From assembly GCF_003473485.1 (NCBI RefSeq), contig NC_053042.1, positions 48,757,762 through 48,821,761 on the forward strand: a DNA stretch of 64,000 nt. The letters run 5' to 3'. The notes below the pieces were generated by a model that was given only the letters and a program-made list of their open reading frames with translations, did not search any database and was not told where the DNA came from. Each line of letters begins with the position of its first letter. Position 1 is the stretch's first letter. Source of the stretch: Medicago truncatula (lineage: Eukaryota; Streptophyta; Magnoliopsida; Fabales; Fabaceae). This document shows, one piece after another, positions 1,466-36,422 of the stretch. Position numbers and translations under genes: made by a program.

Positions 1466-3376
1466 TTTTTTTTTTTGATAAGGCACAAAAACACTAAAAG
1501 GCAGGATTAGGGACCTGAACCCATGTACATAAAATCATTACAACAGATCCAAACTAAGGCAAGGCAAAGTAAAAGCTCACAGAAACTATAGCAAAAGAAA
1601 CATATCAAAATAGAATTCTAGCCAACAACAGCAATTTCATTTTTTATAGGCTTTGGAAATTCCACTCTTAGCACGGGTGTGAATGCAATCATCTTTCAGC
1701 CCTTTTGACTGTTGTGATTTGTTCTTCTTCTTCTGTTTATTTGAAACAAAAGGAGTAAACTCCGTATCTGCATGACCATCATCCACATCAGTTTGATCCT
1801 CCTTGTCTATCTGAGCATGATCAATAGAGGAGGTGTCCCCCCCAAAACGTTTTTAAAATTGCAACACTTCTTAAAGCAGCATCACTATAGATAGGTGCAA
1901 TTTTGGTGTCTTTTGGTATTGTTACCAACATCTCAGCATTCCTATCCTTCAGATTACTATGGTGAACATTTTTAACAGGACAATGGATGAGTTCTCCATT
2001 GGGTGGAAAGTGAAATCATTCTCTAAGGAATTATCAGATTCTTCATCAGCAAGGTCTCCCCAAGACTTTGGCAGAATGCCCACACTGTTCAGAACTGCAG
2101 CATAAGAAGTAATTGCAGTTTCCAATCCAATTTTCACAGGTTCTAAGACAGGAAAAACAGGAAATTTATCACTTGTTAGAGAGATATGATTGGTAGTGAT
2201 AGGTTGTGGCAAAGGCCTAATTTCCCAATCACCATTAACAGTTTCTGCTGCATGGGAGCTATCACAAACATCCTTCAGTAGAGAAAATGAATTATGAAGA
2301 GCCAATGAAGGATCCTCATTCTGATCTTGAATAATGTCATGTGAAGCACAAGCATTCCCATTGACTCCTTCCTTCTCTATGCTATCATTATGAGACAAGC
2401 TGCCTTCAAATTCCTTGTCTATATTCTCAGTAGTAGTGGTGGTGATGTTAGCAACATCAACATCCTCAATGTGGTGAATCTCATGAGATGTCTCAGATTG
2501 CTTGCCTCCCAATCTACCTGCTGCAGTGGGTCCTATTTATGTTATAACAGTTTGAGCTTTCTTGTGCACCTTAGCCTTATCAATGCCTTCTTTGATATTC
2601 ATAGGACTTAGTTTCTTGCAATTTTGAAGAGTATGGCCTAACATCTTACAATGACCACAATAGGGTGGTTGTTTTTCATATTCAATAGCAATTGGAAAAG
2701 CATGACCCTCCCTCTCCACTAACACTGATTCAAACAACCTCCCTGACATATCCACGTCCACTAAGACTCTAGCATACAATCCAAATAACCTAGCTTGTGT
2801 AGCTTCATCAATGGTCAAAGGAGTACCTATTCCAGAAGCAATCTCATAGAGGGTTTTCTTCCTCCAATACTCCTGAGGGAGATGCATCAATCTAACCCAT
2901 ACCTGAGCATGTGTCTGAACTTGGTGTTGTGGGGTGAAATCCTTGGTCCAGTAGTAAAATCTCAGTATGCCAGGCTGCAGATTTACAACTCTAAGGGCCA
3001 AAATTTTGCGCATGTCTTCAACAGAGTGGAACTTGAATTCGAAAAATCCTTTTCCCAAGGGAATAACCGACCAGTTTTTGAGACTTGGCCACAAATCACA
3101 CAGCTTGAGCTTCAAAGCTTTAGTCGTCAATGGCGGATCCCCTTTGTGTAAAGTCAATCTCCCATGAAGATTACTCCTACAAGCTTCAAGTCCAGATTCA
3201 TATTCATCCTGAGATATCTTCACACTGACAGTGTCACCAATGTAGACTTTGGGTGGTAAATTGTTCAAATGAATGTCACAAGACGCAGATAGAGCTTGCG
3301 CGAACTTTTTGGTGGAACTTATTTTCTCCACCACCGCCGTCTCCGGCGGAGCCAAGAAAGGCCATGGGCAAACCAT
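1466..3376 (-). pseudogene. Broken LINE ORF1 (DUF4283 + CCHC zinc knuckle)
   Basis: Non-LTR retrotransposon ORF1 remnant. Reading from 3376 downward, the frame encodes a DUF4283-type RNA-binding-like region with the core words LPQEYWRKKTLYEIA and ARVLVDVDMS. A zinc knuckle CGHCKMLGHTLQNC (C-x2-C-x4-H-x4-C type) follows. The frame hits an in-frame TAA at about 2537, then stays open in the same frame from 2512 to 1949. A further frame break precedes a basic lysine-rich tail whose stop is at about 1636. A T11 run at 1466-1476 is the poly(A) tail of a minus-strand insertion. No reverse transcriptase is attached, so this is an ORF1-only or internally deleted copy and is dead. Similar proteins are widely annotated in legumes as 'DUF4283 domain protein'. 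Confidence 0.85.
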
Positions 3377-3706
3377 TAAAACAACTTAATACCAGAAAAC
3401 TACTCACCAAGGCCTCGCTAGAAGATGGTGGAATCGCCGGAAAAACGGTAACTGAGAAGCAGCGAATGACGGAGAAGAACTTGATTTCATAGGAATTATA
3501 ATTTATAATAACATGATGTGATTGTCTAAGGTCTGTGAATTAATAAGTTGTTTGAATATGAAATTAATATTGTTTGAAATGCTTGTTAGGTGTCTTCGCT
3601 CTCATAAAAATAAGAGTTGTGTTATTTGAACATCCATATATGTGACAACTTTTGTGACAACCAAAATTTTACAAAGGAAATGAGTAGTGGCACAAAAACC
3701 AAAGCA

Positions 3707-16981: not shown

Positions 16982-17269
16982 CAAATAAAAAGTGTTTTGG
17001 GGATTTAGAAAACTAAAGATTTTCTTTTTTTTGAGAAAAAAGGAAACCAAAATATGACCGTAAAAAAAAAAAAAAAAATTTATTTATTTATTTATTCATT
17101 TGTCTAAATTATCGAATAAAAAAAATTATCATCTTATTTTACCAGAAATTTCATATTTGTATATAAAAGAAATGAAATTTATGATAAAATAATGCACTTC
17201 TATTCTTAAAAATAATAATTGTATGATGTAAAATAATATTTTGGTCAACAGATTTAGGTTTACTCCATT

Positions 17270-18481
17270 TCCTTTTTTTTTTTTAAGCAAAAGAAGGGAT
17301 GCAGAGGGATCTCCTGCTGCAGAACCCTAATTATATATAATAAGAAAGAAGTACAAAAAGTGAGGGGGACAAAACCAAAACCCTCGAGAAAATTAATAGG
17401 TAACAGAAAAAATAAAAACCCAAAACAAAAACAAGAGAGAAAAGACCCGCAAAAGAGATAGTGAGGCGAACGGCTAGAGGTACCCACCTTGAAACCTTTG
17501 CATGCTTCGGACTGTTGCTTCTTGCTTTTCTTCTTTCTTGGGACCACAAGTTGAAATGGTTGGCCAGTATCTCTTGCTAAATCAGTAGTTTCATTTTTTT
17601 GACCCATGTTAGCCCAAGAATCACTCAAAAAATCCATAGTTTGCTGGGCCACAGAAGGGACGAGTCCTAAAACTTGCATATCGTGAATAACATTGGCACT
17701 AAAATTAGACAAGTTAGGGTCGGTCCCAACTATGGAATCATTCATTCCTAATTCCTGCTCAAAGTCATTCAGAGTATGATCATTACCGTAATCCATATCA
17801 GTCACCGCATCACACCAAGGGCCAGTGATAAGCATATCAGCAAAAGAATTGCTCTGTTGATTCCCATTATGAATCTCAACCTGAGCTAAGGTGTCTTCCA
17901 CTTGCACAGGAAGAGTTTCAATAGTAGAAGATGCCTCTTCCACTAACTTAATAGCATCTCCTACGTTCATTGTGGTTGTCATCTCTCTAGACCTTATAAT
18001 ATCAATAATAAGTGGGTCCTCATCTACAACGATTTTGTTACATCCTGAGTGTTGCGCAATAACATCAGTTTTTTCAACCTCATGTTGTCTAGCCATGGGG
18101 TGCTTCACAGTTTCAGATACCTCACCCTTGTGAGCATTCTCTTTTTGTTTCTTAGCAACCTCCTTCGAGGCGATATAATTGTTATGCAACCACTTACATT
18201 GACCAATAGAATGACCGATTGTAGCACAATTGTTACAGTATTCAGGAAGTTGTTCGTATTGAACTTCAACATAAAAGGAAAACCCTTCACGTTCAACCAT
18301 AATCTCATTAAAAATTCTTTTGGAAAGGTCAAGATCAATCAAGATCCTCGCATAATGGCCAAAAGTGCGATTCTTAGTCGCATTATCTAAAGCTATAGGG
18401 GTTCCAACCCCATTGGCAATTTCAAACAAAGTTGTATGTCTCCAATATTCTTGAGGGAGATCTATCAATCTAATCCAGACT
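17270..18481 (-). pseudogene. 5'-truncated LINE ORF1 (DUF4283 + CCHC)
   Basis: Second ORF1 remnant, about half identical to the one at 1.5-3.4 kb. It begins abruptly inside the DUF4283 region at VWIRLIDLPQEYWR, next to an AT-rich junction at 18481. The frame passes through zinc knuckle CNNCATIGHSIGQC and a long acidic middle, then runs into the 3' UTR. A T-run near 17270-17284 with AAGC beside it is the poly(A) end. The open frame (18468-17260, 402 codons) is intact but lacks the element's N terminus and any ORF2, so it is a truncated insertion. If expressed it would only be an ORF1 tail. Confidence 0.8.
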
Positions 18482-21400
18482 ATATATATTATTTTTAAAA
18501 TTATTCCTTGTTTAAAGGTGCTTTTGGTGCCTCTATTTTTAAATTCGTCATGATTTGCTCATAACTTGTCTTTCATTTTCGTTTGGTGCATGATGGATCT
18601 TTGCATGATCGAAATTTTTTGGAGTTTGTCCAAGTCAGAGAGGATCTTTTTGGTTGTTTTGTTTTCTTGATGTTTTGGTGGGTTGCCCTTCTTCCTTTTT
18701 GCTTACTTTCGTTATTACCTTCCTCAAACTTCAAATAAAACACTGCAAAGTAAATTTATTAGTAAATGAGATGTGTGGGTTGTCTCTAGTAAAGTGCTTG
18801 TTTAAGGTCTCTTGCTTGACCTTTGTTGTTTAGAACTTAGTTTGATCCCTCACGAACAAAAGCTCCCCCTTCATCATACTCTTTCTCTTCTTCCTTTTCT
18901 CAACATTTATATTTTTGTTGGTTGGAGTTTCATCTAATGTTTTGTCAGACGGTGCGACATCTTCATGTTTCTTGTTTTCAATTGGTGATATCCTTAATAC
19001 TTCTTGCGATGAAAATAATAACTGATTGTAAGAATAAAGATGAAGAAAATGAGATTTTTCTTTGATAGGGGTAAATTTTCCTCAATTCATCGAGGGATAG
19101 TGTAAAAAAAACCGTGTTTATAATACCTTCCCCTTACTAACCATGCTATATATAGGGAACTAACTAAGTAAGATAGGGTTTGTAAAATTGATATACATTT
19201 AAGTCATACATCGAGTAGTGAAAAGAAAAAAGAAGTAAAAAATTAGTATAAATATATATAGTTTGTTTGATTTTTTTTTTCACCACAACATCTCTAGTCT
19301 TTTTGGCGTTTTGAGGACTTGGTAGTTTAGAAAGTTTTTAATTTTCTGATGTAAAAATACCAACAATGATAGATGTTGGTAGATGTCACTATGTAATAAA
19401 GTTATATTTTTGTCAATCAATATTATTTGAGAGTTTATTAAAAAAATTAGTATTGTTTGAGAGTAAATTAGCAATTCACCCCTTGAAATTGTAGGGATCG
19501 GGTATCTATACCCTTTAAATATGTGAGTACGGAAGGAAAATCCTTGATTTTGAATTATATTGAGTGATTTGGTCTTTCTGATAATTTTTATCTAATGTAA
19601 TATCAAATTAATCATTCAACTATACTACTTACTAGTAAACAAGGTGCAAAATTAAAGTGTCAGGGTATGCAAAATACATATAAACTATGATTACATAGAG
19701 ATAATTTCAAAATCCAAGGTATGCAGGTGCACACCCTCACACATGGCTGGCTCCGCCCCCGATGCCAGAAACAACAATTATATTTAAGTCGTTAGATATA
19801 TAATTAAGTCACATCTTTATATATTCAATATTTTATCTATTCATAGTTAATGTGAAACTAATCACTTCCACTTAAACTCAAACAATTATAGATGAGATTT
19901 GGATTGGGGCAATTCGACTACACATAATCAGCACGTCGGAATCATATGATCAAAACAAAACCAATTACACGGTTTGTAGTTGATTTTTCTTATTGGCGTA
20001 TCTCTGTTATAGATAATTTTCGATTGTTGGTGTACAACTCTACGTGTTAAATTGTCCTAGTACTAGTTAGTACCTGCATCCAAATTAAAGTCTACGTACC
20101 TATGTTTGGTTTGGTTATTCATTTTCATTCTTGGAGATCTTTGAACGAACCATGGGAATGGTGGTTGGTGTACTTTCCGTGTGGAGAAGTGACATGCAAA
20201 ATTGCCAATTGACAAGTGCAATAAATGTGATCTCTTTGTAGTTGTTGCTACTAGTCAATAAAGCAGTGTGTGATCTCACTCACTTCTCAACACTTTTGTT
20301 TAGCTTCTCAAACGACAGTTGAATTTAAGAAGGGAAGAGGGTAAAATTACCAACTTCAAAATCAAAACAAAATCGTGGCATCGTCATATCAAACCTTCCA
20401 TTTGACCTACTCGATCTCCCAAAGAAAAAGAAGAAGAAATCATTGATGTGGGGACTAGACACTAGAGGTGTACACGAGTCTCTAAAATACGTAAACAGTA
20501 AACCCATGCATCTAACCTCTTATAGCGGGTGAAATTTAGGGTTTATATTTGGACCAAGTTTTATCATGACAAACCGATAATTCCCTAAAATAACTATAGA
20601 TACATATTTGTAAGAACCATTGGTATTCCCTAAAATAACAACAATAGATACATATTTGTAATCAAGTTTTATCATATTTTTATATTATTTTTTGGTAAAG
20701 TTTTAATTACCTTGGAGTTTGGTTGGACGTATAGCAAGATTTGTTTATATTTAAATTTATTTATGTTAAAGCAAATTAATATCTAATTATGATATGACAA
20801 TTTGATTGGATGATGGAACATGTCAATGGGTGTACTGGTCATGGCGGGAGGGACGGCCGTCCAATGAACCATTTTTTAATGCATCAAAATTATTATTTTA
20901 ATTCAATAATCAGTACTATGTAGATATATTTGCGATTGTCTATTGGAGGAGACTTGTGAAAATTGAAATTTTGGTGTCCATGATTGGTCGCATTGAAACA
21001 AGATTCTCAGGTTGGAATAATGAGAGTATTACCTTCTGAAGTGTGTATTTTCTCTACCGATCTACTTTCTTTCATTCTTCAAGACTCATACATGTATCAT
21101 TTATTATTCTATTGAATATGTTAGGTTACTACTATTATCACTAAGCTATCTAAGAAAAGAAAACAAATATTGAAAATTTTCTTGTTGTTTATTGATGATT
21201 CAAGACCCTTTTATAGGGGAATACAAGGAGCTCATATAGGCCATCAACGGCACTCCTGAATTCAAGGATAAAAAAGACAGCAATAACAATATTTGGATTT
21301 ATCTGCTAGCTGGTAGAGGTACTGCCAGTGCATTATTACTGCAGATTAATTCCACTAAGTCCTAAGGACAGTGTCCTCTAGTGATGCTGATGGGTCCTAT

Positions 21401-34159: not shown

Positions 34160-34210
34160 GTCCCACATCGTCTAATCCAAAAGCAAGGCTGAGTTTCTCG
34201 CATATAAAAA
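34160..34210 (+). promoter_or_regulatory. snRNA promoter: USE and TATA box
   Basis: GTCCCACATCG (34160-34170) is an exact plant Upstream Sequence Element (RTCCCACATCG). TATAAAAA lies at 34203-34210, leaving 32 bp between them. In plants this longer spacing specifies RNA polymerase II snRNA genes, and the shorter spacing of about 23-25 bp specifies polymerase III. The class fits U5. Confidence 0.93.
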
Positions 34211-34239
34211 GAAAGGACCTCACCACTTCTTAATTACGG

Positions 34240-34358
34240 AGCCGTGTGATAATGACATAGCGAACTATTCTTTCGCCTTTTACTAAAGAATACCGTGTCA
34301 GTGTCACATTTAGCGGCATACGCTAGTTTTTGGAAGAGTCCTCTTTACGGAGGGCTCT
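34240..34358 (+). ncRNA. U5: U5 spliceosomal snRNA gene
   Basis: U5 holds the ends of exons in the spliceosome through loop I. Loop I CGCCTTTTACT is at 34274-34284, closed by ATTCTTT/AAAGAAT. The long 5' arm pairs in successive stems: GCCG with CGGC, TGTGA with TCACA, and TGACA with TGTCA. An Sm-protein site AGTTTTTGG (34325-34333) precedes a 3' hairpin, AGAGTCCTC pairing with GAGGGCTCT (34335-34358). About 119 nt is the usual size for plant U5. The 5' end at A34240 is inferred from the TATA distance (about 30 bp). With USE, TATA and 3' box all intact, this looks like a functional gene, not a pseudogene. Confidence 0.94.
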
Positions 34359-34359
34359 G

Positions 34360-34373
34360 CAATATTAGTTAAA
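34360..34373 (+). terminator. snRNA 3' box
   Basis: CAATATTAGTTAAA fits the plant snRNA 3'-end signal CA(N)3-10AGTNNAA exactly, starting two bases after the terminal hairpin of U5. Confidence 0.88.
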
Positions 34374-34729
34374 ATTTTGCTATTTTTTAATTGTTAATAC
34401 TAATTAGCAAATTAATTAATTATATTGATTTATTCTTGGCATATATTATATTAATTTATTCTTGACATATCTTAGAAACCCATTATATCTATATTCTTAC
34501 TACTTTTAATGTATTTATAATTAACTTGTTTAATGTATTTATAATTAACTTGTTCTCCTATGTCTTAAACGAATTTACTTAAATTTAATTAGCTAGTTTA
34601 AACTTTAGAGTAGCTATCTCTTACCTCCGACTCACCTGTGGCCGTGGTGGTTGCCTTGCTTGTGGTAAATGTATAGTTGTTTGTATAATACTTGTGCTGA
34701 TATAAATTTGTTTCTTTGTGTGTTGCAGG

Positions 34730-35506
34730 GATGTGTTTTTGCGCACTTCAGGATCCTCCTTTCGAGGATTCATAATGATGAGTACGACCCTGCTCTTACC
34801 CCGCTTGTGAGTCAATGGAAACCTACCAGAGGTTTTACTGATCCCGGACACTACAGACATGTCATTGATTCGTTGGACCATTTTCATGTCATCTGGATGT
34901 CGTATGAGAGACGATGACACATCACGCCCTTTCAGGACATATGTTGGTACTCCAGATGGATCATGGCCGGCAAAGACATGCGGGTTCATTACTTGCTAGA
35001 GCGGGTTCTTAGGCAGTTCGGGTATGTCCAGACTGTTCCTAGGCATCCTACAGACATTGGGCCTCTTGCGACAGCGGATGTGGCTATGGCCTTCATGGAG
35101 TTTGCTCTACATGTTCTCAGCCAACTGGAGATGGGTGATCTGGTTCCGGATAACGAGCTGTTGGCTCATTATAGGGGGTACATGAGATGGTTTGTTAGAG
35201 TATCACATCCTATTGTGAACCCCCTGCGGCCATTCCTGACTACACAGCTAATGCCCATCCTCGTCCCGTCCCTCCCTACGAGGAGGTTATTGTTGAGCAG
35301 CAATGAGTCAGACATCCTCCTGACCCATATCAAATCATCAACAACATCAGAGCCAGAGTGGACTGTGCAATGAGGCATCCTGGTGTGTTTCGTAATTCAG
35401 AGGAGGTTCTTCACTTGATGCAGGGCTTACAGTCTGAGTGGAGCATGTTAGAGCAGATGCCGGCTCCGTGGAGGAGGAGTAGGAGTCCACGGGATGGAGC
35501 ATTATG
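34730..35506 (+). pseudogene. Plant mobile domain (PMD/MAIN-like) pseudogene
   Basis: C-terminal part of a plant-mobile-domain protein, the transposon-related family often mis-named 'serine/threonine phosphatase 7 long form homolog'. Recognisable words are PLVSQWKPTRGFTDPGHYRH, the tract HITPFQDICWYSRWIMAGKD, RVLRQFGYVQTVPRHPTDIG, and a late RNSEEVLHLMQGLQ segment. A TGA replaces an arginine-type codon at about 34914. The frame shifts near 35240, and another stop (TGA) interrupts the shifted frame near 35303. No upstream exon is seen. It may be a remnant of a MULE-carried PMD gene. It begins about 360 bp after the U5 3' box on the same strand. Confidence 0.8.
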
Positions 35507-36275: not shown

Positions 36276-36422
36276 CACCCTCCGGCACTAATATAAGTAA
36301 AAAAACTACATTTTAGGTTCATTCATTTAATGATGCACATGGTCTTTAATAAAGACCATGTGCATCATTAAATGAATAAACCTAAAATATAGTTTTTTGC
36401 TTATATCAGTGACCGGAGGGTG
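36276..36422. mobile_element. Stowaway-type MITE, near-perfect hairpin
   Basis: 147 bp with ends CACCCTCCGGCACT and its inverse (from AGTGACCGGAGGGTG), flanked by TA on both sides (36274-36275 and 36423-36424). This is the Tc1/mariner target duplication. The two halves pair almost completely around the centre GGTCTTTAATAAAGACC. It lies about 385 bp upstream of the UPF0496 start codon. Confidence 0.9.

Follow-up and report, generated by a model that had tools for sequence, protein, structure and literature searches.

A probable U5 snRNA gene of Medicago truncatula with an AG-type Sm site shared by most intact copies

The window, the whole 64 kb stretch of DNA that was analysed (C1:48757762-48821761), carries at 34160-34373 a complete plant U5 snRNA gene. 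We consider it probably functional. The genome has at least 26 intact U5 copies, and this one falls in their majority subclass, in which the Sm site begins with AG. The gene as such is unremarkable, being a further copy in an abundant family. The second letter of its Sm site is G where the family consensus has A, and this letter is common to 18 of the 26 intact copies.

Anatomy of the locus

RF00020, the Rfam U5 covariance model, matches 34240-34356 of the plus strand over model positions 1-117 of 117, scoring 92.5 bits where the cut-off is 40, with an E-value of 7e-15. An earlier note, written from the letters alone, had read a complete plant U5 gene here and proposed a full-length Infernal match as its check; the match bears this reading out, and the USE, TATA, loop I, 3′ hairpin and 3′ box lie at the places it gave (Table 1). 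Compared with the RF00020 family, loop I, the place of the Sm site and the 3′ hairpin are all as expected. On the other hand, the family Sm consensus is AAUUUUU and the window copy has AGUUUUU, and the window copy adds a predicted hairpin by the Sm site that competes with the closing stem. The locus would indeed be overlooked by protein-based annotation, as had been remarked, though an Rfam scan detects it. The proposed RNA body of 34240-34358 stands, but its exact 5′ end is not fixed by the sequence; an A at 34236 is also compatible with the TATA distance, so that the RNA may start as much as about 4 nt before 34240.

Table 1 Features of the U5 locus in window coordinates
Feature	Position	Strand	Basis or remark
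Upstream sequence element (USE) GTCCCACATCG	34160..34170	+	sole exact RTCCCACATCG in the window, both strands
TATA box TATAAAA	34203..34209	+	32 bp after the USE
U5 snRNA	34240..34358	+	RF00020, 92.5 bits at 34240-34356
Closing stem GCCG/CGGC	34241-34244 with 34314-34317	+	covariance match, fold
Long stem, one A-G mismatch	34246-34258 with 34295-34307	+	pair changes in copies
Loop I hairpin, loop CGCCTTTTACT (34274-34284)	34266..34292	+	covariance match, fold; closed by ATTCTTT 34267-34273 / AAAGAAT 34285-34291
Alternative hairpin	34310-34315 with 34321-34326	+	minimum-energy fold; runs into the Sm site
Sm site AGUUUUUGG	34325..34333	+	consensus AAUUUUUG; second A is G
3′ hairpin	34336-34343 with 34350-34357	+	fold, pair analysis of copies; one G-U over eight pairs
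3′ box CAATATTAGTTAAA	34360..34373	+	fits CA(N)3-10AGTNNAA

The USE had been called exact, and it fits its pattern without mismatch; with one mismatch allowed, the 64 kb window holds two sites against 0.54 expected. The claimed TATA box and 3′ box were likewise recovered, as were the stem-closed loop I and, with its one G-T pair, the 3′ hairpin, and loop I has the form that marks RF00020 members, CGCCUUUUACU on ATTCTTT/AAAGAAT. No other distance between USE and TATA is as frequent in the U5 copies of the genome as this 32 bp. Waibel and Filipowicz are said to have reported in 1990 that this spacing determines the polymerase. Here the USE and TATA have the spacing of plant RNA polymerase II snRNA genes, and the 3′ box stands just downstream of the RNA as it does in such genes. 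The 3′ box consensus was taken from PMC5079582 and PMC545797, the latter giving the USE one C shorter than the pattern used here.

When 400 windows of 64 kb were simulated with a first-order Markov model, an exact USE arose 6 times, and a USE with TATA at 31-35 bp never did. The repeats and the palindromic element in the neighbourhood might bring to mind a look-alike produced by chance or by a mobile element, with no true U5 gene. Such a look-alike is extremely improbable, given the E-value reached over the full model and the lack of the promoter pair in the simulated windows; moreover, no second copy of the U5 unit is present elsewhere in the 64 kb window.

Plant snRNA genes need both USE and TATA and require the 3′ box for processing, and a DSP1-containing complex, in which the nuclease is probably CPSF73-I, cuts their 3′ ends (PMC5079582). 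By analogy, RNA polymerase II would initiate near 34236-34240, driven by USE and TATA, and the nascent RNA would be cut near 34358, directed by the 3′ box. An Sm ring would be loaded on AGUUUUU, the RNA would enter the U5 snRNP, and U5 loop I would grip exon ends in splicing.

The Sm site within the U5 family

A U-rich site of the Sm type follows the closing stem and precedes the 3′ hairpin, as in RF00020 members. The earlier note had listed this site (34325-34333) but overlooked its A-to-G departure: the heptad at 34325-34331 aligns to the Rfam consensus with a blank in the match line at the G. The site thereby departs from the strict consensus Pu-A-U-tract-G-Pu, quoted in PMC9881141 as PuAU3-4NUGPu. 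The strict form is the usual one, but Rfam admits members by score and fold.

In the human Sm ring the second A is said not to be replaceable by G, and this irreplaceability is attributed to its hydrogen bonding to the SmF Gly38 backbone (PMC4756616, citing Raker 1999). A permissive human definition, AUNU(U/G)UN, given in PMC12359035, likewise excludes AGUUUUU. Because the human rule forbids G for the second A, the window copy would be expected to be defective, and the G lowers confidence in normal Sm core formation. One Sm letter off the Rfam consensus would also fit a recent pseudogene that arose through a disabling mutation of the Sm site.

This was weighed against the other U5 copies of the genome (430 Mb, 42 contigs). 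The search listed at least 42 U5 matches, all above the cut-off, with the window copy sixth by score. All 42 listed matches were taken with 1 kb flanks and scored for signals (USE with no more than one mismatch, TATA at a distance of 29-34 bp, 3′ box, core of 105-120 bases), and 28 of them passed. An intact set of 26 was defined by this test plus at least 80 bits, a line picked after the table had been inspected; it dropped L040, which scores 78.7 bits and has lost its 3′ hairpin, and L043, which scores 69.4 bits and is altered in the loop I region. The U5 alignment excluded L050, whose match spans 50 bases.

By their Sm letters, the 26 intact copies divide into 18 AG, 5 AA and 3 UA, the UA copies retaining the second A. 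Before L040 and L043 were dropped, the counts were AG 19 of 28, AA 6 and UA 3. In an unrooted tree of the intact copies, built with the Sm columns left out and containing one long branch (L029), the AG rows make up one side of a branch with support 99/98, and 200 bootstrap trees recover it in 100% of cases. The AG copies would form a clade under a root placed outside them, which is where the consensus AA points. By these comparisons the window copy is unremarkable within a large U5 family and belongs to its majority AG subclass.

After the genome-wide comparison, the AG Sm site was dropped as a mark of decay of the window copy. The U5 gene claim was kept because score and fold are the criterion for membership and the G recurs in 18 of the 26 intact copies. 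Disablement of the window copy by a recent Sm-site mutation is highly unlikely, since the G is common to so many intact copies, lies on one branch side and is unchanging among them. The copies that are likely pseudogenes, the seven lowest-scoring matches (L045-L051, 46.1-60.4 bits), look different. Five of them are without an Sm-like U-tract and three without TATA at the right distance, and the automated search placed a 3′ box at the right place in 0 of 7, with the box of L049 visible further along the alignment.

In Arabidopsis, 14 U5 genes are described, all with USE and TATA, compared with at least 42 matches and 26 intact copies here; they have the 3′ box CAN3-10AGTNNAA as here, and some are clustered, again as here (PMC545797). 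The U5 clusters of the present genome lie at 10.12 and 10.23 Mb of C5 and at 3.88-3.90 Mb of C7. Comparison sequences were also sought in viral contigs and plasmids, where none were found; the contig match L001, from the search of genome contigs for comparison sequences, has no U5 in it.

Conservation and folding among the copies

Parsimony changes per site were counted on the 18 AG rows. They amount to 3.30 upstream of the USE, 2.25 in the spacer to TATA and 3.33 in the spacer to the gene, spacer counts being inflated by indels; the USE has 0.73 and TATA 0.29, compared with 2.77 for both spacers together. In the RNA, the values are 0.46 for the 5′ stems, 0.03 for the loop I hairpin, 1.13 for the 3′ strand of the long stem, 1.00 for the pre-Sm region, 0.14 for Sm GUUUUUG (whose class letter itself defined the AG class) and 1.48 for the 3′ hairpin, followed by 1.12 for the 3′ box region. 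The 3′ strand of the long stem, the 3′ hairpin and the 3′ box region are moderately conserved only.

The Sm block shows 1 change against 19.4 predicted from the spacer rate, and per site the G plus U-tract changes at about one-twentieth the rate of the promoter spacers. Ascertainment accounts for part of the low rates of the loop and Sm blocks, because the search model gives weight to conserved loops and Sm sites and the copies it found were then filtered by score. Whole-unit gene conversion is not a ready explanation, because the 16 bases preceding the Sm block change seven times faster than the block. Judged from these rates, the AG Sm variant looks conserved rather than decayed. The earlier statement that nothing in the unit suggests decay thus stands in its conclusion, the G being a majority and conserved letter, but it had been made without noticing the Sm change.

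Folding of the window copy gives a z-score of -4.33, and 0 of 200 shuffles are as stable. The loop I stem is broken in the free minimum-energy fold (-41.2) and retained in the centroid; when the closing stem and the loop I stem are imposed, the canonical fold reaches -39.0 compared with -41.2 unconstrained.

The canonical pairs were followed through 25 distinct copies, in which 97.1% of the cells pair and 10 of 32 pairs are changed on both sides, a number reached in 4 of 500 shuffles. Both-sided changes occur in 2 of 4 pairs of the closing stem and in 4 of 12 pairs of the long stem, where 98.0% of the cells are paired; the A of the A-G mismatch in the long stem is identical in 26 of 26 intact copies. 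All eight stem pairs of the loop I hairpin are invariant.

Within the AG class, 98.7% of the cells pair. Two pairs are changed on both sides, as many as 227 of 500 shuffles reach, while in covarying cells and in covariation score the class exceeds all 500 shuffles. Among 17 distinct AG copies, pair 15-60 is C-G in 9, G-C in 7 and G-U in 1. The G-C form, together with the one G-U, is confined to one tree branch of eight copies, so the flip counts as a single compensated event. At pair 12-63, two copies (the window copy and L030) have A-U, 14 have G-C and one has G-U.

These data bear on the main rival to a functional gene, a silent or weakly used copy that is intact by descent while the U5 pool comes from others, perhaps the AAUUUUU copies. 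In its favour, the genome has at least 42 U5 matches and 25 intact copies besides this one; the second A is present in the five AA and three UA intact copies, and a G in its place is disfavoured by human in-vitro work (PMC4756616). However, the AG class includes 18 of the 26 intact copies, its USE, TATA and Sm tract are far steadier than the spacers, and the change that the window copy itself carries at stem pair 12-63 is compensated. We therefore regard silence as unlikely, if clearly less so than a recent pseudogene, and favour a functional copy.

The alternative hairpin takes the first two Sm letters and is mutually exclusive with the closing stem GCCG/CGGC. Both-sided changes occur in 2 of its 6 pairs, and 246 of 500 shuffles reach two. 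On the other hand, 86.7% of its cells are paired compared with 14-44% when it is slid, and its number of covarying cells exceeds all 500 shuffles. Its pair 72-86 differs by class: U-A in 17 of 18 AG copies, A-U in 3 of 3 UA copies and A-A in 4 of 5 AA copies. Both the closing stem and the alternative hairpin have some support among the copies, and the predicted hairpin is suggestive only. It resembles the near Sm-site structures of human pre-snRNAs, likewise short hairpins by the Sm site that can absorb a few Sm letters and exclude the mature fold, as described in PMC10584915; compared with these, the present case consists of a fold prediction and modest covariation in one plant genome.

Other snRNAs and the neighbourhood

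The letter before the U-tract was also read in other snRNAs of the genome. Among 27 U4 matches, it is A in 16 of the 16 with the motif located, and three more have AA with a changed tract. The U1 heptad, in 30 copies fetched of 40 matches, is AAUUUGU in 25, AGUUUGU in 1, and other or unread in 4. The AGUUUGU copy (L095, 1501-1661) has an exact USE. In the best 16 of 46 U2 matches (L109-L124), taken as bare cores without promoters and read by eye, the letter is C in 13, A in 2 and G in 1, with tracts of five to seven U that make the register less certain. Thus, among the copies read, U1 and U4 mostly retain the second A, and most U2 and U5 copies lack it. At 9.23-9.39 Mb and 12.60-12.61 Mb of C5, U1 and U4 matches are separated by no more than about 1-2 kb, a proximity resembling the U1-U4 clusters of Arabidopsis (PMC545797).

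Tentatively, and at a little under an even chance in our estimate, the plant Sm ring may accept G, as in the largest U5 class, and C, as in most U2 copies read, at the position of the A that human in-vitro work describes as irreplaceable. If so, Sm-site recognition at the second pocket would differ between plants and animals. The AG, AA and UA classes differ also in pairing right beside the Sm site, and U5 particles of the three types would then differ in assembly or use. Should AG-type U5 be stable and Sm-bound in the plant, the rule that the second A cannot be G would fail for plants, and a search strict about the Sm consensus would cast doubt on 18 of the genome's 26 intact U5 copies.

A change in SmF was considered as the cause of such tolerance and not upheld: Ser at the place of human Gly38 occurs in L128, a degenerate intronless SmF-like copy, but also in 8xi2_f and 8ro0_f, chains of other organisms. 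A literature search on plant U5 Sm letters, in a limited set of journals, found no statement about them, and one for a human U4atac variant at the equivalent Sm letter found no paper. Pea U5 RNA was reportedly sequenced in a 1983 study, which may well already report the AG class.

Around the U5 unit, the plant mobile domain pseudogene that the earlier note saw downstream stands as a relic, its support being weak (fragments with E 0.0023 and 0.001, under the Pfam cut-off). At 34669-35370, two collinear fragments in the same frame, split by a stop codon, cover domain positions 171-246 and 262-295. The Rfam scan of the window also matched MIR2593 and MIR5269, which we take to be Medicago families. 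MIR2593 falls, on the minus strand, on a near-perfect palindrome at 36291-36406 (arms of 49 nt, 96% complementary), to which several unrelated miRNA models match on both strands below their cut-offs; for the palindrome, an inverted-repeat mobile element is a likelier reading than a miRNA gene. Minus-strand open reading frames at 2537-3385 and 17260-18558 encode DUF4283, the second with a zinc-knuckle just under the cut-off, and are probably retroelement remains.
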